Below are positions 1,559 to 36,824 of a stretch of 64,000 bases of DNA, piece after piece. The DNA comes from Rhodanobacter sp. DHG33 (GTDB lineage: Bacteria > Pseudomonadota > Gammaproteobacteria > Xanthomonadales > Rhodanobacteraceae). The translations under genes and the position numbers were made by a program. The notes below the pieces were generated by a model, which searched no databases, was not told where the DNA came from, and saw only the letters and a list, made by a program, of their open reading frames with translations. The stretch spans positions 504,757 through 568,756 of the forward strand of contig NZ_JACYXM010000006.1 in the NCBI RefSeq assembly GCF_014843005.1. Direction: 5' to 3'. Positions within the stretch are counted from its first letter, which is position 1, and each line of letters begins with the position of its first letter.

Positions 1559-1888
1559 TCAGCGTTCGACGAAGCGTTTCAGGCGTGCCAGCGCCTGATC
1601 CCACTGCGCCGCAATCGCGTCCAGCGAGCGGCGCGCTTCGTCCAGCCGCGACGGCTCCAGTTCCCACAGCCGCTCGCGCCCCTGCCAACTGTCGCGCACC
1701 AACCCGGCGTCGGCCAGCACCAGCAGATGCTTGGTGACGGCCTGCCGGGTGATGGCGGTGCCGGCGGTGAGCTGCGCGATGGACAGCGCGCCGCCGGCGC
1801 ACAACGCGGCGAGCAGCCGCAGCCGCGTGGTGTCGCCCAACGCGGCGAACACGGGGGCGGTTTTCTGCCAGGCGGGGGTTTTCGTCAT
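1559..1888 (-). CDS. ArsR-family winged-helix repressor
   Basis: A 109-residue single-domain winged helix protein. The helix-turn-helix spans about residues 35-65 (SIAQLTAGTAITRQAVTKHL) and the wing carries RERLWEL. No metal-binding CxC pair is visible, so this belongs to the non-metal ArsR group that commonly pairs with SRPBCC/AHSA1 proteins. The ATG at 1888 is 5 nt beyond the stop of the SRPBCC gene, so the two form one transcript with the SRPBCC gene first. The two dyads at 2379-2396 and 2421-2436 are its likely operators, giving autoregulation. The ligand is unknown. Confidence 0.88.
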   Translation of the reverse strand: MTKTPAWQKTAPVFAALGDTTRLRLLAALCAGGALSIAQLTAGTAITRQAVTKHLLVLADAGLVRDSWQGRERLWELEPSRLDEARRSLDAIAAQWDQALARLKRFVER

Positions 1889-1893
1889 GGTGC

Positions 1894-2355
1894 TCAGTGC
1901 CCGGCCAGGTAGCGCTGGATGTTCTGCATCTGCTGGTCCCAGCCGCCGCTGTTCATGCGGTAGGCCTCGGCGCGACGCGCCAGCGGGATGTGGTCGAAGC
2001 CGGATTCGGAAAGGCGCAGCAGGATGCCGTCGGCATGGTCTTCCAGCACGAATTCCACCAGCGTGGTCGGTTCGTGCGCATAGTTGCTGTTCGGATCGAT
2101 GGCGTAGGGATGCCAGCGGTACGAGAACAGGTGCTTGGGCTCGACGCGCTCGATCTGCAACTCGCACAGCAGGTGCTCGTAGCCGGGGTAGGTGAGGTGG
2201 CCGCTGGTGGTCTTGCCGGCGACGAAGCGTTCGCCTTGCAGTTTCATGCCGAACCAGTCGCCGAAGCTTTCGGCGTCGACCAGCGCATGCCAGACCTTGT
2301 CGCGCGTGGCCTGCAGCAGAATCTGTCGCTCGATGCGGTCGGTGCTCGTGTTCAT
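1894..2355 (-). CDS. SRPBCC / AHSA1-like domain protein
   Basis: A 153-residue helix-grip (START-like) protein of the activator-of-Hsp90 AHSA1 group. It opens with the typical IERQILLQATRDKVWHAL strand-helix and a W-[FY] segment (FGDWFGMKL), and ends with the long C-terminal helix carrying GGWDQQMQNI. The fold forms a hydrophobic ligand pocket; no enzyme activity is implied. The ATG at 2355 follows a GGAG motif. It is the first gene of a two-gene unit with the ArsR repressor, so it is probably the repressor's main target. Confidence 0.87.
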   Translation of the reverse strand: MNTSTDRIERQILLQATRDKVWHALVDAESFGDWFGMKLQGERFVAGKTTSGHLTYPGYEHLLCELQIERVEPKHLFSYRWHPYAIDPNSNYAHEPTTLVEFVLEDHADGILLRLSESGFDHIPLARRAEAYRMNSGGWDQQMQNIQRYLAGH

Positions 2356-2378
2356 GCGGTTTCTCCGGAGTGGATGAA

Positions 2379-2436
2379 TGCAACCTTGTGGTTGCACATT
2401 ACGATCCCGTCGGAAGAAATGCAACTATATGGTTGC
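2379..2436 (-). promoter_or_regulatory. Two operator dyads around the SRPBCC-ArsR promoter
   Basis: TGCAACC-TTGT-GGTTGCA (2379-2396) is a perfect 7-bp inverted repeat. GCAAC-TATATG-GTTGC (2421-2436) is a second, imperfect copy of the same site with its centre 41 bp away, about four helical turns. On the minus strand a TTGCAT/TAATGT pair with a 17-bp spacer lies between them, so the sites cover the -35 region and the transcription start. The arrangement fits autorepression by the ArsR protein. Confidence 0.6.
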
Positions 2437-2456
2437 TTGATGCGGCGTGGCCGGTG

Positions 2457-3692
2457 TCAGGCTTGCGCTTCCGCGCGCTGTACCCGCAGGCCGGCCATGT
2501 AGCGCAGCGCCACCAGCATCGCGGCCATGCCCGAGGCTGCGCCGACGCCCAGTGCCCAGCGCGGGCCGAAGTGGTCGGCGATCCAGCCGACGATGGGTGC
2601 GCCGATCGGCGTGCCGCCCATGGCGACGGCGATGCGCAGGGCCATCACGCGTCCGCGCATGGCCGGTTCCGTGGTGAGCTGCATCAGGCTGTTGGTGCCG
2701 GTGGCGAACGTCAGCGCGGCGAGACCGGTCAGCACCAGGGCAGCGGCGAACAGTCCTTCGTTCGGTGCCACTGCCGCCAGCATGCAGCCCACGCCGAATG
2801 CGGCGGCAGCCGTGCAGAGCAGGGACATGCCCGGTCGGCTGCGGTACGCGGAATACAGCGCGCCAGCCACCGAGCCGACGGCGAACGCCGAGGTGAGCAG
2901 GCCGTATTGCCCGGCTCCGCCGTGGAAGGCGGCGAGTGACATGGTCGAGATGAAGATGGGGAAGTTGAGGCCGAAGGTGCCGATCAGAAACAGCATCACC
3001 AGCACGGCCATCAGGTCGGGCCGCTGCCACACGTAGCGGAAACCTTCGGCGATGCCGCCGACCTTGCGCGACCTTCGCTCGCTGCCGTGCAACTGGTCCA
3101 CGCGCAGCAGCATCAGCGAAGCCAGCACGCCGGCGAACGAAGCGGCGTTGATGAGGAACACCCAGCCGCAACCCACGACGGCGATCAGCAGGCCGGCCAC
3201 GGCCGGTCCGATCATGCGTGCGGCGTTGAACGAGGTGGAGTTGAGCGATACCGCATTGGCCAGGTATTCGTCGCCCACCAGTTCGTTGACGAAGACTTGC
3301 CGCACCGGCGCGTCGAATGCGGAGACGCAGCCGAGCAGCAGGGCGAACACATACACCTGCCACAGCGTGACCACGCCCGTGACCGTCACCAGGCCCAGGC
3401 CCAGCGCCAGCAGACCGAGCGCGGCCTGGGTGCCGATCAGCAGCTTGCGGCGGTCGAAGCGGTCGGCGGCATAGCCGCTCCACGGCAACAGCAGCAGCTG
3501 CGGGCCGAACTGCAGGGCCATGACCACACCCATCGCACTGGCATTGCGATGGGTGAGGATGGTGAGCACCAGCCAGTCCTGCGCCACGCGTTGCATCCAC
3601 GTGCCGACGTTGGACACCAGCGCGCCGCCGGCCCATACGCGGTAGTTCCGGATGCGCAGCGAGCCGAACATGCCGGGGCCCTTCGCGCTCAC
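2457..3692 (-). CDS. Major facilitator superfamily exporter
   Basis: A 411-residue, 12-helix MFS transporter. Hydrophobic segments are evenly spaced and the loop between helices 2 and 3 has the family pattern GYAADRFDRRKLL (variant of GxxxDRxGRR, about residues 60-75). The subgroup resembles the drug-export or enterobactin-exporter-like (EntS/MFS_3) proteins. I chose the GTG at 3692 because it overlaps the upstream stop as GTGA, a translational-coupling arrangement; an internal ATG at 3671 would start just before the same FGSLRIRNYR motif. It is the last gene of the MarR-hydrolase-membrane protein-MFS unit, which points to MarR-controlled efflux. The substrate is unknown. Confidence 0.85.
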   Translation of the reverse strand: MSAKGPGMFGSLRIRNYRVWAGGALVSNVGTWMQRVAQDWLVLTILTHRNASAMGVVMALQFGPQLLLLPWSGYAADRFDRRKLLIGTQAALGLLALGLGLVTVTGVVTLWQVYVFALLLGCVSAFDAPVRQVFVNELVGDEYLANAVSLNSTSFNAARMIGPAVAGLLIAVVGCGWVFLINAASFAGVLASLMLLRVDQLHGSERRSRKVGGIAEGFRYVWQRPDLMAVLVMLFLIGTFGLNFPIFISTMSLAAFHGGAGQYGLLTSAFAVGSVAGALYSAYRSRPGMSLLCTAAAAFGVGCMLAAVAPNEGLFAAALVLTGLAALTFATGTNSLMQLTTEPAMRGRVMALRIAVAMGGTPIGAPIVGWIADHFGPRWALGVGAASGMAAMLVALRYMAGLRVQRAEAQA

Positions 3693-6204: not shown

Positions 6205-6962
6205 ACTGGTACGGCATCCGCGCGATCTACCGCTTCGAAATGGCCCGCACCGGGCGCACCCTGATGCAGAGCGTCGCCTCGCCGGTGGTTTCCACCTCGC
6301 TGTATTTCGTGGTGTTCGGTTCGGCGATCGGCTCGCGCATCACCAGCGTGGAAGGCGTCAGCTACGCAGCCTTCATCATCCCTGGCCTGGTGATGCTGTC
6401 GCTGCTGATGCAGAGCGTGTCCAATGCGTCTTTCGGCATCTATTTCCCGAAGTTCGTGGGCACCATCTACGAGGTGCATTCCGCGCCGCTGTCGTTCCTG
6501 GAGATCGTGCTTGGCTATGTGGGGGCGGCGGCCACCAAGGCGGTCATCGTGGGCCTCATCATTCTCGCCACGGCGCGCTTTTTCGTGGATTACTCGATTG
6601 CGCATCCACTGGTGATGGTGGCCTTCCTGCTGCTCACCACGATCACCTTCAGCCTGCTCGGTTTCATCATCGGCATCTGGGCGGACAACTTCGAGAAGCT
6701 GCAGGTGGTGCCGCTGATGGTGATCACGCCGTTGACCTTCCTTGGCGGCAGTTTCTACTCCATCCACATGCTGCCGCCGTTCTGGCAGAAGGTGACGCTG
6801 CTCAATCCGGTGGTATACCTGATCTCGGGCTTCCGCTGGAGTTTCTACAGCCTGGCCGACGTCAGCGTCGGCATCAGTCTTGCCGCCACCTTCGGTTTCC
6901 TTGCGCTATGCCTCGTGGCGGTTTGGTGGATCTTCAGGACGGGCTACAAGTTGAAGGTGTGA
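6201..6962 (+). CDS. ABC-2 type permease (YadH-like)
   Basis: A 253-residue ABC-2 membrane protein with about six hydrophobic helices and the conserved region [12 protein letters not shown] near residues 172-183, typical of YadH/NodJ-type permeases. It is the partner of the ATPase immediately upstream (ATGA overlap). Two of each would form the exporter. Nothing here identifies the cargo; the adjacent MarR operon makes export of a small toxic molecule possible, but this is inference. Confidence 0.9.
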
Positions 6963-7026: not shown

Positions 7027-7866
7027 ATGGCGAACAGGCGCGAGCGGGACATCAGCGACTGGATACCGGTGGTGATTGTCGTGGCGCTCGTCGTCGCGGG
7101 GGGCGTCTATGTGGCGCACCGTTTCATGCAGCCAGGCGCGGAGCCCGCGGCGGCATCCACCGCAGCGGCGCCCGCGAGTCCGGCGATGCCGAGTGCCGTT
7201 ACGCATCACCCGATCGCCCAGGCCGAGGTGCCTGCATCGACGTCCACGGCGCCGTTGCCCGCGTTGGACGGCAGCGACGCCAGCGTGGGCGCCGGCTTGC
7301 GTGCACTGGGCGGGGACAGGTTGCAGGATCTGCTGTCGCCACGGCAGATCGTGAACCACATCGTGGCCACCGTGGATGCGCTGCCGCGCCATGAGCTGGG
7401 CAGCGCGTCCATCCTGCCGCTGCGCACGCCGCGCGGCGCGTTCATGGCCAGTGAGACGCAGGGCACCCTCGTCGCCGATCCGCGCAATACCGAGCGCTAC
7501 GCGCCTTACATGGCCGTGGTGCGGCGCGCCGATTCCTCCGCGCTGGTGGCGTGGTACGTGCACAACTATCCGCTGTTCCAGCAGGCGTACCGCGAACTGG
7601 GCTATCCCAAGGGTTATTTCAACGACCGCCTGATCGCGGCGATCGACGACATGCTGGCCGCGCCGCAGCTGCCCCAAGCCCCCGCATTGCGGCTTGCGAA
7701 CGGGCGCTACACCTACGCCGACCCTGCGCTGGAATCGCTGTCGGTAGGCCAGAAGCTGATGCTCCGGCTGGGTCCGGCCAACGAGGCCGAACTGAAGGTC
7801 AAGCTGCGCGTGATCCGCGGCCTGCTCACGGTACGGCCATCGCTGACCGGACCGCGAGAAGGCTGA
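7027..7866 (+). CDS. DUF3014 domain-containing membrane-anchored protein
   Basis: A 279-residue protein with a short cytoplasmic start (MANRRERDISDW), one transmembrane helix (about 13-31), an Ala/Pro-rich linker (to about residue 75) and a C-terminal globular domain of the DUF3014 type. Landmarks are LLSPRQIVNHIVATVDALPRHEL and, later, YVHNYPLFQQAYRELGYP. DUF3014 proteins are common in Xanthomonadales and have no known function; the topology puts the domain in the periplasm. It follows the ABC permease by 64 nt on the same strand and may be cotranscribed. Confidence 0.85.
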   Translation: MANRRERDISDWIPVVIVVALVVAGGVYVAHRFMQPGAEPAAASTAAAPASPAMPSAVTHHPIAQAEVPASTSTAPLPALDGSDASVGAGLRALGGDRLQDLLSPRQIVNHIVATVDALPRHELGSASILPLRTPRGAFMASETQGTLVADPRNTERYAPYMAVVRRADSSALVAWYVHNYPLFQQAYRELGYPKGYFNDRLIAAIDDMLAAPQLPQAPALRLANGRYTYADPALESLSVGQKLMLRLGPANEAELKVKLRVIRGLLTVRPSLTGPREG

Positions 7867-29904: not shown

Positions 29905-31299
29905 TTATTTCCGTTCGAGCGCGGGTTTGCCGGCACGCCGGCCTTTCCAGACATAGCCGATCCCCAGCAGCACGAACCACACCGGGCTGGCCAGCAGGGC
30001 GGCGCGGGTATCGGCCTGCAGGCAGAGCAGCACCACCACGAACGCGAAGAACGCCAGGCACACCCAGCACATGAGAACGCCGCCGGGCATCTTGTAGTCG
30101 GAGCTCTCGTGCTGCTGCGGACGCTTGCGCCGGTAGGCCATGTACGCGCACAGGATCAGCGACCACACGAACATGAAGAGCACGGCGGACAGCGTGGTGA
30201 CGAGGGTGAACGCGGTGACCAGATTGGGGACGAGGTAGATCAGCGCCGCGCCCAGCAGCAGGCAGAAGCAGGAGAACAGCAGGCCCAGCGAAGGCACCGC
30301 CGCCTTCGACAGGTGCGCGAACGCCTTCGGCGCATGGCTTTCGTCGGCCAGGCCGTACAGCATGCGGCTGGTGGAGAACATGCCGCTGTTAGCCGAGGAG
30401 GTGGCCGAGGTCAGCACCACGAAGTTGATCAGGCTCGCCGCCGCCGGTATGCCGGCCAGCACGAACAGCTCCACGAACGGGCTCTTGTCCGGCTCGACCA
30501 GGCGCCACGGCGTCACCGCCATGATCGCCGCCAGTGCCAACACGTAGAAGATGATGATGCGCACGGGGATCGAATTGATCGCCTTCGGCAGGTTGCGCCG
30601 CGGGTCCGCGGTCTCGGCGGCGGTGGTGCCGACCAGCTCGATGCCGACGAAGGCGAACACCGCGATCTGGAAACCGGCGAAGAAACCCGTCAGCCCGTGC
30701 GGAAAGAGGCCGCCGTCGTTCCACAGATTGGCCAACGAAGCCTTGTTGCCAGCGGGCGAGTGGAAGCCCCACATCACCAGCGCGAAACCGACCACCACCA
30801 GCGCGATGATGGCGACGATCTTGATCAGCGCGAACCAGAACTCCAGCTCGCCGAACATCTTCACCGTCGCCAGGTTCAGGCCGAGCAACAGCAGCACGCA
30901 CAGCAGCGCGGGTATCCACGACGCGAGGTGCGGCAGCCAGAACTGCGTGTAGGAGGCGATCGCGATCACCTCGGCGATGGCGGTGACGATCCAGCAGAAC
31001 CAGTACGTCCAGCCGCAGAAGAAGCCCGCCCACGGTCCGAGCAGGTCGGTGGAGAAGTCGATGAACGACTTGTACTCCAGGTTCGACAGCAGCAGTTCGC
31101 CCATCGCGCGCATCACGAAGAACAGCATCACGCCGATGATCAGGTAGACCAGCAGGATCGACGGGCCGGCCAGGCTGATCGTCTTGCCCGAGCCCATGAA
31201 CAGCCCGGTGCCGATGGCGCCGCCGAGGGCGATCAACTGCAGGTGGCGGTTGGAGAGGCTGCGCCTCAGGTGATCCGGTTGCTCCGTGGAAGCGGTCAT
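29905..31299 (-). CDS. cycA: D-serine/D-alanine/glycine transporter (CycA-type)
   Basis: A 464-residue, 12-helix amino acid-polyamine-organocation permease. It closely follows the E. coli CycA pattern: SNRHLQLIALGGAIGTGLFMGSG (about 17-39), MRAMGELLLSNLEYKSF, WTYWFCWIVTAIAEVIAI, LNLATVKMFGELEFWFALIK, GFFAGFQIAVFAFVGIELVG and SANSGMFSTSRMLYGLA. CycA imports D-Ala, D-Ser, Gly and D-cycloserine by proton symport. The ATG at 31299 aligns with the E. coli N-terminus; longer upstream readings do not. It diverges from the PadR-HAAS pair and is not obviously linked to it. Confidence 0.93.
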   Translation of the reverse strand: MTASTEQPDHLRRSLSNRHLQLIALGGAIGTGLFMGSGKTISLAGPSILLVYLIIGVMLFFVMRAMGELLLSNLEYKSFIDFSTDLLGPWAGFFCGWTYWFCWIVTAIAEVIAIASYTQFWLPHLASWIPALLCVLLLLGLNLATVKMFGELEFWFALIKIVAIIALVVVGFALVMWGFHSPAGNKASLANLWNDGGLFPHGLTGFFAGFQIAVFAFVGIELVGTTAAETADPRRNLPKAINSIPVRIIIFYVLALAAIMAVTPWRLVEPDKSPFVELFVLAGIPAAASLINFVVLTSATSSANSGMFSTSRMLYGLADESHAPKAFAHLSKAAVPSLGLLFSCFCLLLGAALIYLVPNLVTAFTLVTTLSAVLFMFVWSLILCAYMAYRRKRPQQHESSDYKMPGGVLMCWVCLAFFAFVVVLLCLQADTRAALLASPVWFVLLGIGYVWKGRRAGKPALERK

Positions 31300-31412
31300 G
31301 CGGGCGCCGAGGTCGTGGACGGGCAGCCACGATAGAAGAAACGCAGTATCCCCGCCAATGGCGCTAGCCATGACGATCTGCCGGCGGCGACACAGCCATG
31401 ACTTCCGGCGCA

Positions 31413-31436
31413 TGTACTAGTGTGAAGTAAACACTA
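31413..31436 (+). promoter_or_regulatory. PadR promoter and overlapping operator
   Basis: TAGTGT-GAAGTAA-ACACTA (31418-31436) is a perfect 6-bp inverted repeat over the expected transcription start. A TGTACT -10 box (31413-31418) with a weak -35 18 bp upstream (GACACA, 31389-31394) precedes it. This fits autorepression by the PadR protein and argues that translation starts downstream at the GTG at 31475 and not at the ATG within the operator. Confidence 0.5.
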
Positions 31437-31474
31437 TGTTTCACTCCAAGCTATGCAGCAGGGCGGGCAAGCAC

Positions 31475-31837
31475 GTGGACGAGATCGACGGCCAACTGAA
31501 GAAGTTCCAGAAGGAGCTTTCCGCCGGCACGGTGTCGCTGGTGCTGCTGGCCGTGCTGGGGCAGTCGCGCCAGCCGCTGTACGGCTACCAGATAGCCAAG
31601 CGGCTGGAGCAGGCGGGCGAGGGCGTGCTCGCGGGCAAGCAGAGTGCGCTGTACCCGGTGCTGCGCAACCTGGAGGGCGCGGGGCTGCTGGACAGCGAGG
31701 TGGAGCCCTCGGTGAGCGGGCCGCCGCGCCGCTATTACCGCATCACGAAATTCGGCCGCGAGGTGCTACGCGAATGGATTGCCGCGTGGAACGCCAGCCG
31801 CGACTCCGTCGACAAGGTTCTGCAAGGGGAAGTGTGA
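31475..31837 (+). CDS. PadR-family transcriptional repressor
   Basis: A 120-residue compact PadR winged helix: ELSAGTVSLVLLAVLGQSRQPLYGYQIAKRLEQ (about 11-43), then KQSALYPVLRNLEGAGLL and the wing SGPPRRYYRITKFG. I prefer the GTG at 31475 (homologous proteins start with MDEID). The ATG at 31436 would add 13 residues with poor codon use (TTT, CTA, AGG) and lies inside the operator. It is coupled (TGATG) to a HAAS-domain membrane protein gene, a partnership very common for this PadR type. Confidence 0.88.
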   Translation: MDEIDGQLKKFQKELSAGTVSLVLLAVLGQSRQPLYGYQIAKRLEQAGEGVLAGKQSALYPVLRNLEGAGLLDSEVEPSVSGPPRRYYRITKFGREVLREWIAAWNASRDSVDKVLQGEV

Positions 31838-32766
31838 TGACCATGCCACGCACCATCAACGAATACCTCGAACAACTGCGCGTCGCTTTGCGCGGCGCCG
31901 ATCCCGCGCTGATCCAGGACGCGCTGTACGACGCCGAGGAACACCTGCGCGCCGAACTCTACGAGCGCCCCGGCCGCGACGAGGCCGCCATGCTCGAACA
32001 CGTGGTGGAGAGCTATGGCGCACCGGATGAAGTGGCCGAGATCTACCGCGACCAGGAGATCAAGATCCAGCGTGCGATCCGGCCGCCGCCGCCGCCGAAG
32101 CGGCGCTCGGTCGCCGGCCGCTTCTTCGGCGTGATTGCCGATCCGCGTGCCTGGGGCGCACTGTTCTACCTGCTGTTCGGGTTGGTCACCGGCATCGCGT
32201 ACTTCACCTGGGTGGTTATGGGCCTTTCGATGTCGGCGGGCTTCTCCCTGCTCATCATCGGCCTGCCGTTCATCGTGCTGTTCTTCGGCAGCGTGCGCGG
32301 GCTTGCGCTGCTGGAAGGGCGCCTGGTGGAAACCATGCTGGGCGTACGCATGCCGCGCCGGCCGCCGTATCCGCCGAAGGACATGACGCTGTTCCAGCGC
32401 ATCGGCGCGATGTTCACCGATCCGCGCAGCTGGAGCTCGATGTTGTATGCGTTGCTGCTGCTCCCGCTGGGCATCTTCTACTTCACGTTGATCGTGACGT
32501 GGCTCGGCATCTCGCTGGGTTTTGCCGCTGCGCCCGTGCTGAAGCTGGTCGCCGTGTCCGAGCATTGGGACATCGGCACCTGCGTTGGCCTGGCGGACTC
32601 GACTTGCCGTGGCATCGAGTGGCTGAACGGTTGGGGTGGTGCGAGCGTGCTCTGCGTCCTCGGCGTGCTGCTGTTCTTTGTGCTGCTGCACGTGGTGCGT
32701 GGGCTTGGCCATATGCATGGCTTGTTGGCTAAGCATTTGCTGGTGCGTGGGGTGGAGCGGGGGTGA
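31837..32766 (+). CDS. HAAS (DUF1700)-type membrane protein with putative sensor domain
   Basis: A 309-residue protein. The N-terminal soluble HAAS helical region (residues 1-75) has INEYLEQLRVALRGADPALIQDALYDAEEHLRAEL and YGAPDEVAEIYRDQE. A proline run (RPPPPPKRR) leads to two homologous membrane blocks, each RVIAD/FTDPR-[AS]W followed by two or three hydrophobic helices (about 100-175 and 195-260), as in the 'putative sensor' family, plus a last helix (about 275-295). It is the usual target of the cotranscribed PadR repressor, probably in envelope-stress sensing. Overlap with padR is 1 nt. Confidence 0.87.
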   Translation: MTMPRTINEYLEQLRVALRGADPALIQDALYDAEEHLRAELYERPGRDEAAMLEHVVESYGAPDEVAEIYRDQEIKIQRAIRPPPPPKRRSVAGRFFGVIADPRAWGALFYLLFGLVTGIAYFTWVVMGLSMSAGFSLLIIGLPFIVLFFGSVRGLALLEGRLVETMLGVRMPRRPPYPPKDMTLFQRIGAMFTDPRSWSSMLYALLLLPLGIFYFTLIVTWLGISLGFAAAPVLKLVAVSEHWDIGTCVGLADSTCRGIEWLNGWGGASVLCVLGVLLFFVLLHVVRGLGHMHGLLAKHLLVRGVERG

Positions 32767-32851
32767 GCTCGTGGGGCGAGCTTCTTTGGTTTCGCCTGCA
32801 GCATTGGTTTCGCCAGTGACAGAGCTGTTTCGTGCGCCTGCCGGCGCCCGA

Positions 32852-32887
32852 GCTACTTTCTCTTTGCGTGCTCAAAGAGAAAGTAGC
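32852..32887. repeat. Left-end hairpin of the repeat island
   Basis: GCTACTTTCTCTTTG (32852-32866), loop CGTGCT, then CAAAGAGAAAGTAGC (32873-32887): 15 perfect base pairs. It ends 86 bp after the HAAS gene and could also act as a terminator-like structure, but no U-run follows. Confidence 0.75.
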
Positions 32888-32959
32888 CAAAGAGAAAGAG
32901 CACCCCGATGCGGCGCTCTCCGGGCATCCTGCCCTCCGAGTCCGTGAGGCGGGGCCGGG

Positions 32960-33087
32960 CTTTTCGGCCGGACTCCTGTCCGGTCGAAAAGGCATCGCCC
33001 TCCATGGCGATGCCCGCTGCGCGGCCTGATCGTCCCCGCCTCACCGCCGCATAGGGGCCCCGGAAAAGCAGCGCGCTCCCAGCGCGC
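32960..33087. repeat. Tandem hairpins inside the repeat island
   Basis: Three stems follow one another. CTTTTCGGCCGGAC pairs with GTCCGGTCGAAAAG (32960-32991, one mismatch, 4-nt loop). GGCATCGCC pairs with GGCGATGCC (32991-33014, 6-nt loop). GCGCGCT pairs with AGCGCGC (33071-33087, 3-nt loop). A transcript here would be heavily folded. Confidence 0.6.
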
Positions 33088-33118
33088 AGAAGCCACGGCC
33101 AGAGCAGAATCAAACCAA

Positions 33119-33167
33119 AGCAGAGCCAAGCTAAAGCAGAGAGCAGAGAGCAGAGCCAAGCTAAAGC
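33119..33167. repeat. Nineteen-base direct repeat inside the island
   Basis: AGCAGAGCCAAGCTAAAGC occurs at 33119-33137 and again at 33149-33167, 30 bp apart, with AGAGAGCAGAG-like sequence between. The copies are identical, which suggests recent tandem duplication and possible copy-number variation. Confidence 0.75.
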
Positions 33168-33192
33168 GGGGCGAAGTACCAACGTCTCTGTT

Positions 33193-33280
33193 CGTCATCC
33201 CGGCGCAGGCCGGGATCCAGTAGCGATCACGCCTGTTCGAGCATCACAGCCACTGGATTCCGGCCTGCGCTGGAATGACG
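33193..33280. repeat. Nested inverted repeat with dRS3-like arms
   Basis: The 29-nt arms 33193-33221 and 33252-33280 are inverted copies with three mismatches and a 30-nt loop. Each arm starts with CGTCATYCC, ends with ATCCAGT and holds its own GC-rich core (CCCGGC-GCAG-GCCGGG in the left arm). The arms resemble the widespread proteobacterial GTCATTCC...GGAATCCAG repeats. Confidence 0.65.
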
Positions 33281-33439
33281 AGCAAGACATGCAGAGCGAA
33301 GCGCCCCAGGGTCTTGCCCTCAGTTCCCAGATACGGCGAGGTGTGGCCGCTGTGCAGGACGTGTCGCCGAACGTAGTTCCAATCTCCTCGACACCACCTG
33401 CTCGTAGTCCCGGCGGATTACATAAGGCCATTTCTCTGG

Positions 33440-33473
33440 GTTACTTCTCTTTGGGCCAGCAAAGAGAAGTAAC
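33440..33473. repeat. Right-end hairpin of the repeat island
   Basis: GTTACTTCTCTTTG (33440-33453), loop GGCCAG, CAAAGAGAAGTAAC (33460-33473): 14 perfect base pairs. Compared with the left hairpin it has one C-G to T-A pair change and loses one T and its paired A, so every difference in the stem is compensated. Confidence 0.75.
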
Positions 33474-33552
33474 TCGGGCGCCGGCAGGCGTCCGAAACCG
33501 CTCTGTCGCTTGCGAAAGAACGAACAAATGCAGCGCGCCCGATATTTCTCAA

Positions 33553-35121
33553 TCACCTGTAATTGAAATCCGGCGAAGCCAGCAGAAAAGTATTCCACTC
33601 CTGCTGCGAGTTGGCCTTGGCCAGCGCCCCGCGCGTAACGGCTGAGAGGTGCGGCTCGATGGCGTCGTAGTACAGCCGCGTAGCCAGCATCGGAAAGCCG
33701 GCTTCGCGCGTCTTGCTGCCCGGTGGGGTGAACAGCTGGGTATTGCCGTTGCCGATGGCGGCGGCGATGTCGAAGCGGGTCGAGAGCTGTCCCGAGCCCG
33801 TCCAGCTTGCGCCGTCCAGCGGCCAGCCGTCCGGCGTGATGCGGCCGTACGGCGGTTCGCCCAGCTGGTCGAGCCAGTACACCAGCGGCAGGGCGTTCGC
33901 GATGGGTTTGCCGTCGTAGGCCATGCGCACCGAAGAGATCACGAAGCGCGTGGGGTCCATGAACTGCCGCCCGCTCGCCAGCATTTCGGGGGCATCGAAC
34001 ATCGTACGCAGCACCGCGGCGATGTCGCCGTCCGTCTGCCGGAAGGTCTGCGCCATCCGCGCCACCAGCGCGGGCGGCGGCTGATCGGCCACGAAGTACT
34101 GCGCAAGCCGGCGCGAGACGAACTGCGCACAGGCGGGCTGGTGCACGATGATGTCCACCGCCTGCTTCACTTCGTCGAAACCGCGTCCCCTGATGTGCTG
34201 GCCGAGCAAGACCTTGTCGCTGAAGTCGTGCCGGTACGGATTGAACTGGAACAGGCCGTGCTGCACCACGAGCGGTGCGGCTTTCGCGTTGAAGTGCTGC
34301 GGCTTACCGTCCACCGGTGCGATGCCCACGCCGGTGAGGATCAGCGCCAGCTGCTGCACGTCCTGCTGGGTGTAGCCCGAGCCCACACCCAGCGTGTGCA
34401 GCTCCATCAGTTCCCGCGCGTAGTTCTCGTTGACGTGGCCCTTGGCGTTTTGTGCGTTGTCGAGGAACTCCAGCATCGCCGGGCTTTCCAGCGTGGCCAT
34501 CACCAGGTCCCTGAACTTGCCCAGCGCGTGCGGACGGATCACGCGCTGCTCGTAGTCGGCCAGCTCCCAGCGGATGCGGCCCTTGGGCGCGTACACGCTG
34601 AAGTGGTTGAGCCAGAACCACACCAGTTGCTCCTTGAGTTGGTCAGGTCCGTACACGGCCTGCAGCAGCTCGATCTGCCGCGCCTGCTGCATCAGCTCGT
34701 TGCCGTGCTGCTGCCACGCTTTGTTGGCGGCGTCCTTCTCCGGGCCTGCGGGCATTGCCTTGGTCTGCTGCTGGGCGTCGTACAGATCGCCCAGCAGTTT
34801 CGGCATGGGCGTGTCCGCCGCCTCGAAGCCATGGATCAGCCCGACAATCTGCGGCGGCAGCGAGCCAGGCACGCGGTCGGCCAGTTGTGCGTCGAGCAGG
34901 CCGCCGCGGCCCAGTTTCCGGTAGCGGGCCACGTCCGCGTTGTCGACACCGAAGCCGTCGCGACGCAACCAGGCCAGGTCGGCACCGTTGAATGCGCCAT
35001 GCATTGCCGCTGCGCTGGCCTGCATGGGCTGGCTGGCGCAGGCGGAAAGCAGCAGCGTCAGGATCGCCAGCAGGACAATGGGCGCGCAACGGAGCTTGGC
35101 GGCGAGGTATGGGTTGGGCAT
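33553..35121 (-). CDS. DUF1800-family lipoprotein
   Basis: A 522-residue protein with a lipoprotein signal (LTLLLSAC, Cys28). The DUF1800 domain runs to the C-terminus: LAWLRRDGFGVDNADVARYRKLG (about 48-70), QLVWFWLNHFSVY, NENYARELMELHTLGVGSGYTQQDVQQL, RPHALGKFRDLVMATLESPAML and the final EWNTFLLASPDFNYR. It is a paralogue of the DUF1800 protein at 36834-38420, but without a DUF1501 partner directly downstream. The ATG at 35121 is chosen for its signal peptide. DUF1800 function is unknown; the pair is thought to be envelope-associated. Confidence 0.88.
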   Translation of the reverse strand: MPNPYLAAKLRCAPIVLLAILTLLLSACASQPMQASAAAMHGAFNGADLAWLRRDGFGVDNADVARYRKLGRGGLLDAQLADRVPGSLPPQIVGLIHGFEAADTPMPKLLGDLYDAQQQTKAMPAGPEKDAANKAWQQHGNELMQQARQIELLQAVYGPDQLKEQLVWFWLNHFSVYAPKGRIRWELADYEQRVIRPHALGKFRDLVMATLESPAMLEFLDNAQNAKGHVNENYARELMELHTLGVGSGYTQQDVQQLALILTGVGIAPVDGKPQHFNAKAAPLVVQHGLFQFNPYRHDFSDKVLLGQHIRGRGFDEVKQAVDIIVHQPACAQFVSRRLAQYFVADQPPPALVARMAQTFRQTDGDIAAVLRTMFDAPEMLASGRQFMDPTRFVISSVRMAYDGKPIANALPLVYWLDQLGEPPYGRITPDGWPLDGASWTGSGQLSTRFDIAAAIGNGNTQLFTPPGSKTREAGFPMLATRLYYDAIEPHLSAVTRGALAKANSQQEWNTFLLASPDFNYR

Positions 35122-35201
35122 GCGGTTTATCCGCGGTGGGGGCGGGGGCTTCGGTGTATCGTGCGGCCTGGGCTGGCTACCCGCCAGCATTTGGAGGCTG
35201 T

Positions 35202-35618
35202 ATGGCTATCCAGGCACGCTCGTCCCTGTGGCTGTTGACGGGGTTCGCGGCGGGTATTGTCGCCACGGTGGCGGTTACCTCGCATGCGACAACCCCGCCC
35301 ATGGCCACGCCCGCGCGGTTGACGGGACACTATTCGGTTTCCATCGACGAGATCCGCCAGAACCTGGTGTTCGGTGATTTCTTCTCGGATCGCTATTCGC
35401 ATGCGGTCACGCTGTCCGACGGCTCGGTGCACGAGGTGACACTGCGCGCGGTCAGCCGGAACGGCCAGCCCTTGCTGGAGCTCACCGATGCCTCCGATGG
35501 CAAGGTGGCGCATTCCTTCATGGGGCCGTTCGGCACCACGACCAACGGCAAGTTGATGGTCAACGTGAAGGATGAGGACGAAGTACGTACCGAGATGCAT
35601 CGGCTCACCGGGCGCTGA
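35202..35618 (+). CDS. Small exported protein of unknown function
   Basis: A 138-residue protein with one N-terminal hydrophobic segment (SLWLLTGFAAGIVATVAVTS, residues about 8-27) acting as signal or anchor, then a compact beta-rich region (HYSVSIDEIRQNLVFGDFFSD, and later SFMGPFGTTTNGKLMVNVKDEDE). TGGAGG lies 4-9 nt before the ATG at 35202. I do not recognise a family. It sits between the two DUF1800 genes on the opposite strand and ends 3 bp from the convergent DUF1501 gene. Confidence 0.7.
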   Translation: MAIQARSSLWLLTGFAAGIVATVAVTSHATTPPMATPARLTGHYSVSIDEIRQNLVFGDFFSDRYSHAVTLSDGSVHEVTLRAVSRNGQPLLELTDASDGKVAHSFMGPFGTTTNGKLMVNVKDEDEVRTEMHRLTGR

Positions 35619-35621
35619 CCG

Positions 35622-36824
35622 TCATACCAGGCGCAAATCCTTGGGCTTGGCTTGCGGGAACACCGTCTGCAACTGGCTGGAGCTCAGGCCCCACAGCCGC
35701 GTGAACATGCCGCCCAGTACATCGCGATAGTCGTTGAGCACCTGGTAGTCGCGGTTCTGCAGCAGGTTCGGCGGAGTCACCGCGAGCTGTTCGCCCGCAA
35801 GGCGGCCGCCGGCCACCTTGCCGCCCAGCACCCAGTGCACGGTGCCGTGGCCGTGGTCGGTGCCGTGGTCGCCGTTTTCGCGGAAGGTGCGGCCGAACTC
35901 GGAAAGCACCACCACGGTGGTGTCGTTCCACGCGTCGCCCATCGCGTCGGCATAGGCGGCGAGGCCTTCGCCGAGGTTCTTCAGGTTGTTGGCGAGGCCG
36001 CCCTTGGTGCTGCCCTGGTTGACGTGGGTGTCCCAGCCGCCCACGTCCACGAAGCCGAGCCGGTACTGGTCGCGCATCAGGGTGGCGATGCGCCTCGTCT
36101 CGGCGGCGAAATTGTGCGCGCTGGGGGCGCCGCGGCTGGCGGCCACCATCTCGTTGCGCAGGTCGTCGGATACGGTCTTGGGCAGGGCGAGGCCGTCGGC
36201 GCTGGCCTGCGCCAGCGCGGTGCCCTTGTACATGCCGGCAAGGATGGCCGACTGGCGCGCGTCGAAGTGCGCCTTGGGGTCGCTCTGCAGCGAGATGTTG
36301 GGGATGTCGCGCCCCGCGCCCTGGAAGCTCAGCGGCAGATTGTTGGTGAAGGCGATGGCCGGCGTGGCGTTGTTGAGCGCGCCGGAGAGCCGCGCCATGA
36401 AGCCGGAGCGATAGTTCGTGTCGTGGCCCAGCGGCTGCCCGCGCTCGATGTGGTCCTGCGTTTCGAAGTGGCTGCGCGAGAGGTCGTTGGTGCCGGCGAA
36501 GGGAATGAAGGCGAGCTGTTTCTTCTGCCACAGCGGGTAGAGCGAGTCGCGCACTACCGGGCTCAGCGCCCAGTCGGCATCCAGCGGCAGTGCGCTGTCC
36601 GGATTGGCCGCGTCGGGCTTGGCGATGGCCAGCGTGGGGCGCGACTCGTAGTAGAAGTCGCTGCCGCAGGGCACCAGCAGGTTGTTGCAGTCGTAGCCGC
36701 CGCGCAGGAATACCAGCAGGAAGCGCGGTGTGCCCGCGGGCGCGGCGAACAGTCGGCCCGAGAACGACAGCGTGGACGCGGCGGCGGCACCGGCGGCGGC
36801 AAGCAGGAATTCGCGGCGGTTCAT
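35622..36824 (-). CDS. DUF1501-family Tat-exported protein
   Basis: A 400-residue protein with a Tat-like signal (NRREFLLAAAGAAAASTLSF, residues 2-21), then FLLVFLRGGYDCNNLLVPCGSDFYYESRP. Later conserved blocks are DVGGWDTHVNQGSTKGGLANNL, TVVVLSEFGRTFRENGDHGTDHGHG and GRLAGEQLAV. The D/H-rich blocks are those of the DUF1501 (sulfatase/alkaline-phosphatase-like fold) family and may bind metal. It follows the DUF1800 gene at 36834 by 9 bp, the standard DUF1800-DUF1501 pair. Function unknown. Confidence 0.9.
   Translation of the reverse strand: MNRREFLLAAAGAAAASTLSFSGRLFAAPAGTPRFLLVFLRGGYDCNNLLVPCGSDFYYESRPTLAIAKPDAANPDSALPLDADWALSPVVRDSLYPLWQKKQLAFIPFAGTNDLSRSHFETQDHIERGQPLGHDTNYRSGFMARLSGALNNATPAIAFTNNLPLSFQGAGRDIPNISLQSDPKAHFDARQSAILAGMYKGTALAQASADGLALPKTVSDDLRNEMVAASRGAPSAHNFAAETRRIATLMRDQYRLGFVDVGGWDTHVNQGSTKGGLANNLKNLGEGLAAYADAMGDAWNDTTVVVLSEFGRTFRENGDHGTDHGHGTVHWVLGGKVAGGRLAGEQLAVTPPNLLQNRDYQVLNDYRDVLGGMFTRLWGLSSSQLQTVFPQAKPKDLRLV

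Follow-up and report, generated by a model that had tools for sequence, protein, structure and literature searches.

A dispersed two-unit repeat of Rhodanobacter and its relatives with a putative triple-helix pseudoknot at each end

The locus and its element

The window analysed here is a 64,000 nt stretch of the Rhodanobacter sp. DHG33 contig NZ_JACYXM010000006.1. In it, a HAAS/Sensor-domain gene on the + strand ends at 32766 and is convergent with a DUF1800 gene on the - strand (33553-35190). Between these two genes, at 32810-33516, lies one copy of a widespread bacterial repeat.

The initial annotation described this island as gene-free, with inverted ends that each fold into a 14-15 bp hairpin. 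The window copy fits that description. Its inner open frames are mechanical, inverted-repeat analysis recovered a 51 nt outer repeat (32808-32858 and 33467-33517, 88% complementary), giving the copy terminal inverted repeats of the kind found in MITEs, and the hairpins are perfect, with 15 bp on the left and 14 bp on the right. The stem differences between the two ends are compensated, as was also proposed (GCTACTTTCTCTTTG/CAAAGAGAAAGTAGC versus GTTACTTCTCTTTG/CAAAGAGAAGTAAC). An Rfam scan of the window returned 0 matches at the gathering score; a known Rfam RNA was rejected, with Xoo1 and ncS011 far under threshold. A tRNA search of 30000-36000 found none, and a scan of 32700-33600 for sigma-70-like promoters found no promoter-like site. 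The features of the element are as follows.

32810-33087, - strand (the probable RNA sense, centre to outer end): A unit (left), with genus-wide homologues
32810-32849, - strand: outer part of the end module common to the units, in which a short GC hairpin (CGCC/GGCG) adjoins the putative triplex hairpin
32852-32887: left terminal hairpin S1, arms 32852-32866 and 32873-32887, 15 bp, perfect
32889-32897: putative left third strand AAAGAGAAA, mirror image of the purine arm 32874-32882
32868-32903: predicted pseudoknot stem S2, loop 32868-32872 (GTGCT) with 32899-32903 (AGCAC)
32898-33056, - strand: A core, a multibranched domain predicted from folds and covariation (helices 4-9)
33071-33087: GCGCGC hairpin at the inner edge of A (helix 10), also terminator-like on the - strand
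33095-33310: variable spacer between the units, with AG-rich short repeats and a REP-like insert
33189-33284: independent dispersed inverted repeat of GTCATCCCGGCGCAGGCCGGGATCCAG type, within the spacer
33313-33516, + strand (the probable RNA sense, centre to outer end): R unit (right)
33431-33437, + strand: putative R third strand TTTCTCT, parallel to the purine arm 33461-33467 (AAAGAGA)
33426-33457, + strand: predicted R pseudoknot stem, GGCC 33426-33429 with loop GGCC 33454-33457
33440-33473: right terminal hairpin, arms 33440-33453 and 33460-33473, 14 bp, perfect

The sense strand of the A unit was taken from a wobble asymmetry in the hairpins, B units and R units that is absent in A alone. 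The spacer occupies the position at which other copies carry cargo. The GTCATCCCGGCGCAGGCCGGGATCCAG-type repeat has matches in at least 13/15 genomes of the genus, with at least 98 matches in the top genome.

A multi-copy family of paired units

The repeat was expected to belong to a multi-copy family, and it is indeed dispersed in its own genome, genus and taxonomic family. The genome searches reported the best matches and scored few candidates per genome, and the counts are lower bounds. A 761 bp query gave at least 86 matches in the own genome which, when grouped, include at least seven copies with both units, along with 15 R units and one A unit that stand alone, and fragments; two further diverged units are also present. 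Matches were found in at least 14/15 genomes of the genus, own included, and in at least 168/233 genomes of the family, representing 23/26 genera (at most three candidates scored per genome). When one hairpin class was compared with named genomes, at least 73 stretches were returned, 65 from Rhodanobacter, two from Dyella and six from metagenome bins. In a class-level search with a 75 bp module, at least 23/369 genomes match, own included; such hairpins were listed in 17 of the other 22 and in none of the remaining five.

Mapping of the modules on the loci shows two units arranged tail to tail and facing outward; in the window copy they are of different kinds, A on the left and R on the right. 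The units have in common an outer end module of approximately 87 bp, which is followed by one of three inner domains: A (~200 nt, multibranched), B (diverged from A but with its fold) or R (~110 nt). The end module contains a pyrimidine/purine hairpin of 14-15 bp, followed by a purine tract and then by a short sequence that can pair with the hairpin loop. After de-duplication, 213 elements were recovered. These include A with inverted B (52), A with inverted R (27), A with inverted A (11) and B with inverted B (2), together with single A (76), R (13) and B (12) units, some of them from cut loci, and 20 other combinations. Partners can differ at orthologous sites, where an A unit is joined to R in one genome and to B in another, as in L050 (R/A) and L071 (B/A) and in L178 (B/A) and L180 (R/A).

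The same two-unit design was seen in genus g185 of family f159 (L271, L287, L288 and L320-L389). In seven loci (L020, L022, L041, L042, L045, L060 and L061) the loop of the R hairpin contains approximately 70 nt extra, and several of these extras have a short motif in common with the A core.

Covariation was assessed over 68 pairs in 56 A units. Standard pairs make up 97.9% of 3793 cells compared with 88.7% in shuffled data, a percentage that leans towards the chosen pairs because these were drawn from consensus folds of the same alignment. Both partners have changed in 385 cells, where shuffles average 129, and covariation scores 0.270, compared with 0.102 for shuffles and 0.03-0.09 for slid registers; the number of further pair types (53 versus 55.6) is not above the shuffles. 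The CGCC/GGCG hairpin (helix 1) is paired in 98.0% of cells with four pairs showing double changes, and S1 (helix 2) in 98.8% with double changes at 8/15 pairs. S2 (helix 3) is paired in 91.1% of cells, with two pairs showing double changes and an outermost pair that fails in 20/56 copies. One stem of the A core has been swapped wholesale between copies (GCATCGCC/GGCGATGC and GCGAGTCC/GGACTCGC). Together with the full and partial homologues at many places in the own genome, the A-unit covariation supports the view that the island is more than a chance arrangement.

Third strand, loop contact and acting molecule

Immediately inward of the terminal hairpin lies the purine tract, which mirrors the hairpin's purine arm. 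In the commonest class the tract resembles a second copy of that arm, and the window 9-mer AAAGAGAAA is itself mirror-symmetric. The mirror image is revealed by asymmetric classes (AAAAGAGAAG/AAGAGAAAA, AAGAGAAAAG/AAAAGAGAA, AAAGGAGAAG/AAGAGGAAA, GAGAGAAAG/AAAGAGAG and AAAGAAAGAG/AGAAAGAAA), and arm and tract change together across approximately 10 asymmetric arm classes. Among 119 unique units (of 214), the hairpins of which were found without use of the tract or the loop contact, 946/1006 positions (94.0%) match the mirror image, in a set that was oriented by the letters next to the foot and keeps a few misoriented rows. When the downstream sequences were dealt among arms of equal length, 5000 shuffles gave a mean of 701 (sd 18.5) and a maximum of 768, and slid registers gave 33-57%. 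A third strand derived from a direct repeat, which matches at most 64.5% of positions versus the 94.0% of the mirror image, was rejected. When each lineage and arm class was represented by a single row, with artefacts kept, the mirror match is 416/471 against a shuffled maximum of 357; these shuffles, like those used for covariation, ignore phylogeny, and the lineages are not independent.

Mirror symmetry of purine and pyrimidine tracts, together with a third tract, is the pattern published for an intramolecular triplex (PMC4666352, main text). Beyond the tract, the loop-complementary stretch has on average 4.26/5 matches (shuffled maximum 3.72), and because of this contact the end module is read as a pseudoknot. 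Taken together, covarying arms, a mirror tract and a loop contact are the mark of an intramolecular triple helix that a pseudoknot holds in place. Both sequence hallmarks of an RNA major-groove triplex pseudoknot are present, namely a parallel, covarying pyrimidine third strand and a stem between the loop and downstream sequence. From these sequence comparisons, we consider it very probable that the end module is under selection as a triplex-pseudoknot. Selection on the hairpin itself, as originally argued from the two ends of the window copy, is supported by the covariation of the A-unit stems and by the comparison of arms with third strands. The claim that the hairpin covaries holds for its two strands but was too narrow, as the covariation also takes in the third strand and the loop contact. 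The initial annotation had likewise overlooked that the two units differ in their inner domains, and the dispersed inverted repeat at 33189-33284.

Telomerase RNA and the SAM-II riboswitch contain RNA pseudoknots with a major-groove triplex. They resemble the end module in topology only: both have an H-type pseudoknot whose U/C-rich loop runs parallel to the stem's purine strand, but they are single genes or riboswitches, whereas the module belongs to a dispersed repeat with tens of copies per genome. Triple-helix ENE elements, found in plant and fungal transposon RNAs, are thought to stabilise RNA. They too place a triple helix in the RNA of repetitive elements, but they are eukaryotic, have a different fold and need a poly(A) strand, and we claim no homology.

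The third strand of the end module consists of purines when read from the outside inward (class II). In the opposite direction, from centre to outside, it is a pyrimidine strand that runs parallel to the purine arm (class IV). According to the main text of Holder et al. (2015; PMC4666352), a class II triplex does not form in RNA, whereas class IV is possible in RNA. The strand on which the fold acts was approached through wobble pairs. On the centre-to-outside strand, 316 unique hairpins have 97 G-U versus 14 A-C wobbles (14 lineages to 0), in a survey the pattern of which left out the AATAGAAAG class and with a bias that lies largely at one foot position (37/42 C.A cases, counted as lineage/class rows). 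This bias points to RNA read from the centre to the outside. For pairs predicted for both strands, wobbles stand at 16 to 2 in B and 13 to 5 in R, and an RNase P control (30 family sequences) gave 15 to 2 on its sense strand. Only this shared-pair count is usable, because when pairs predicted for either strand were pooled the RNase P control leaned the wrong way (186 G-T to 260 A-C). In A units wobbles are rare overall and have no clear bias (27 outward G-U versus 22, of 3513 cells), which would also fit selection on DNA. Consensus folds score better in the outward direction, with -155.5 outward and -138.7 inward for B, -42.6 and -40.2 for R, and -117.7 and -116.6 for A. On the outward sense strand the short stem is crossed by a loop of only 1-2 nt, a tight span for the proposed fold.

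A further indication comes from genus g185, where the arm CAATAGAAAG has a T in its purine strand. In the outward reading, a third-strand G lies opposite this T in 29/29 occurrences (eight variants, overlapping loci included, third strand unfiltered). G.T-A is the accepted exception (third) triad of the pyrimidine motif, and in 97 unique rows 686/792 cells fit T.A, C.G or G.T (shuffled maximum 566). Taken as sequence evidence, these patterns make RNA probably the acting molecule, and we take it to be appreciably likelier than DNA.

Triplex-forming repeats of the PIT, BoxC and TM kinds are already known in bacteria. In the main text of Holder et al. (2015; PMC4666352), intrastrand triplex motifs are described as abundant, with the G/C-rich TM_ECO foremost among them. 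The fold described here could act in single-stranded DNA, as a class II (pyrimidine-purine-purine) intrastrand triplex of the PIT, BoxC and TM kind that arises in replication or recombination; selection would then be on the DNA structure or on the recombination of copies with one another. Such a reading draws on the almost pure Watson-Crick stems, with mismatches that are symmetric in A. With approximately 8-10 triads, a loop of 6 nt and a second linker of approximately 5 nt, the motif lies within the ITxF definition given there (Y-R-R tracts in one strand, stem 6-15, loops 1-6); copies may therefore be listed anonymously in the accompanying database. As in PIT, BoxC and TM_ECO, a pyrimidine-purine-third strand arrangement in one strand recurs in many intergenic copies, in inverted pairs of two types and with variability between relatives; inverted pairs of type A and type B are reported for TM in E. 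coli (PMC4666352, main text). A TM-like G/C-rich triplex repeat also lies on both sides of one copy (L187). The wobble strand bias of the hairpins, seen also in B and R, is not expected for DNA, however, the G opposite T fits the pyrimidine motif, and the in vivo data in the main text of PMC4666352 do not themselves support stable TM triplex formation. A single-stranded DNA triplex is thus a possible reading but a rather unlikely one.

The family also differs from TM_ECO, which is G/C-rich and approximately 37 nt long (PMC4666352, main text), in having an A/T-rich stem of 8-10 triads set within structured units of 200-290 nt, and in its loop contact and three-strand covariation. The TM_ECO/BoxC sequence (CCCTCNCCC N3-6 GGGNGAGGG N3 GGGNGAGGG) is not that of the A/T-rich end module. 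No word beginning xanthomon, rhodanobacter, pseudoknot or covar appears in the main text of PMC4666352, and in the open-access literature we found no description of an A/T-rich, pseudoknotted, covarying triplex form inside a large two-unit element.

The L187 composite is framed on the outside by an 82 bp inverted repeat (90%; ~6310-6388 and 7051-7130) that contains the TM_ECO/BoxC-like G/C-rich triplex repeat. Similar sequence precedes many other copies.

Dispersal, cargo and significance

Empty sites in close relatives had been proposed as a check. In one relative, genome G004, only 88 bp separate the two flanking genes and the element is absent. The remaining relatives hold other sequence between this gene pair, so that the difference may reflect either gain or loss of the element. 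At further sites both flanks match an element-free locus (L187/L114, L047/L121 and L028/L251; 83-93% identity), and other comparisons are apparently element-free (L051/L117, L121/L047 and several against L192 and L112 that leave gaps of 0.2-2.3 kb). The filled and empty sites are too diverged for junctions to be read, and L187 and the window copy alone gave alignments of both flanks close to the site. No target-site duplication was seen at five compared sites, at three of which only one flank aligned and the alignments stopped short of the junctions.

Mobile element and structured RNA, the two alternatives first offered, need not be either/or. A plain MITE-like element, in which an unlinked transposase binds the long inverted ends and the hairpins have no role beyond that binding, would account for those ends, for the high copy number and for the relative with the gene pair and no element. 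Against it stand the target-site duplication not seen at the compared sites, the common single A or R units, the joining of the ends to different inner domains (A, B and R), and a conserved third strand and loop contact that transposase sites do not need; we regard this explanation as unlikely. In the examined loci we saw neither a transposase tied to the ends nor an autonomous copy. L079 contains an IS30-type gene and the L399 insert contains ISXO2-like and DDE transposases, all of which resemble ordinary insertions. In L079 (2012-3076) the IS30-type transposase gene lies between a B-unit core and an end-module fragment, as if inserted into the end hairpin.

REPs and BIMEs are defined by a 20-40 bp palindrome with a conserved GTAG foot. 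BIMEs, REPs and MITEs resemble the present family as dispersed intergenic palindromic elements that form inverted composites, but here the units are 200-290 nt, the foot varies (GTAG, GTAA, GGAA, GTCA or GTGG), the multibranched core is conserved and the examined loci give no link to a transposase.

The position between convergent genes, which was noted for the window copy and is correct there, is not a family trait. Gene orientation was callable with a rough gene caller at 98 sites (66 further sites were uncallable), of which 36 are convergent, 54 tandem and eight divergent, and a preference of the element for convergent genes is not borne out. Four terminator-like sites lie in 32700-33600 where shuffles give 0.6: two overlapping at 33071-33088 (-), one at the end of the left gene (32765-32783, +) and one within the right gene (33570-33582, -). 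That the elements are immobile bidirectional terminators or 3' mRNA stabilisers for neighbouring genes is most improbable, for all these sites and the relative rarity of divergent positions (8/98 versus 31/139 adjacent gene pairs in the own genome, rough gene caller), since neither terminal triplex hairpin is among the terminator-like sites, 54/98 sites are tandem, presence differs between orthologous sites and the A core is far larger than a terminator.

In some copies the two units enclose genes. Among the loci examined, nine tail-to-tail pairs enclose 1.1-2.8 kb, and seven of the inserts have a GC content of 0.50-0.56. Four genomes of one or two contigs contain 26 tail-to-tail pairs, counted by eye, with 93-180 bp between the units in 20 and approximately 1.0-5.1 kb of cargo in 6/26 (insert GC 0.54-0.62, loci 0.59-0.65). 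L227, with 1.39 kb of cargo, and L214, with none, are the same site by both flanks, and L062 and L219 differ by a low-GC insert of approximately 1.0 kb. L247, L249 and L206 have a common left flank (91-94%) and three different inserts; the right flank is common to L249 and L206 (88%), and that of L247 matches neither. In 30 Rhodanobacter genomes examined at the L247 site (of 45 with the flanking gene, and including the source genome of L247), a unit or fragment lies within the fetched stretch in 13 and none in 17.

Selected open frames were scanned with PADLOC, which gave matches in 4/13 inserts and none in nine. The matches are a CAP12-type TIR (PDC-S35) in L247, DUF5131 plus a partner (PDC-M30) in L249, DUF5343 (PDC-M34A) in L070 and TIR_2 (1e-7) in L401. 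Some cargo genes thus resemble anti-virus genes and are candidate defence genes. The inserts of L247, L249 and L206, from Rhodanobacter and Dyella, are enclosed by A units and adjoin the same gene, and two of them include candidate defence genes.

Several apparent cargo pairs were set aside. A possible 6.9 kb transposon of the own genome, with R (C11:547142) at one end and A (C11:553745) at the other, was taken as coincidence because the inner frames look by eye like ordinary chromosomal genes. The 3.5-4.0 kb A+...A- pairs of G102 (GC 0.64-0.66) and the A+...A- pairs of L189 and L206, which enclose ordinary-looking genes by eye, were also taken as coincidence. Integron gene cassettes likewise consist of low-GC accessory genes framed by structured sites, but here the cargo lies between two inverted units and an attC-like stretch was seen in the L068 cargo only. 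An integron cassette array was rejected, as attC does not accompany each cargo. A loose attC pattern scan of nine inserts gave three matches (L070, L247 and L249), none convincing. The L068 cargo (1810-3037) encodes two small secreted-type proteins with the attC-like stretch, found by eye, between them, and with only this one stretch L068 was also rejected as an integron array.

The explanation we prefer is a dispersed, non-coding element of two units, A and an inverted B or R, each ending outward in the shared module. This module would fold as an H-type pseudoknot with an intramolecular triple helix. The terminal stem of 14-15 bp would take up a polypyrimidine strand in its major groove, parallel to the purine arm, and the triplex would be locked by a second stem of 4-5 bp, which the hairpin loop forms with the sequence adjoining the third strand. 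The fold would act in RNA read from the centre outward, with T.A-T and C+.G-C triads (class IV). As no sigma-70-like promoter was seen in the window copy, this RNA may be made mainly by read-through from neighbouring genes. We infer that the triplex serves as a cap that protects the outer transcript end from decay or unwinding. As non-autonomous elements, copies would move or be exchanged, and the neutral centre of their tail-to-tail arrangement would leave room for accessory genes, which may also be exchanged. The comparisons on which this explanation is based show covariation of the two-strand stems and of the three-strand module, and a wobble strand bias in the hairpins, B and R. For the whole, a two-unit element with triplex-pseudoknot ends that acts in outward RNA, we see about an even chance.

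More speculatively, and with considerable doubt, paired triplex-capped non-coding RNA units might be a new kind of modular platform in Gammaproteobacteria, one that spreads without cargo and provides exchange sites at which accessory genes, anti-phage systems among them, are swapped between the two inverted units; the window copy would then be the empty form. Triple helices in bacteria have so far been proposed from sequence patterns, with little evidence of selection on the third strand. In this family the third strand changes with both arms in many lineages, which makes the triplex question testable. If the RNA reading is true, genomes throughout a large family would each have tens of copies of a triple-helix RNA module. 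Should the cargo observation prove general, the elements would also help to explain how some accessory and defence genes come to be placed between housekeeping genes.
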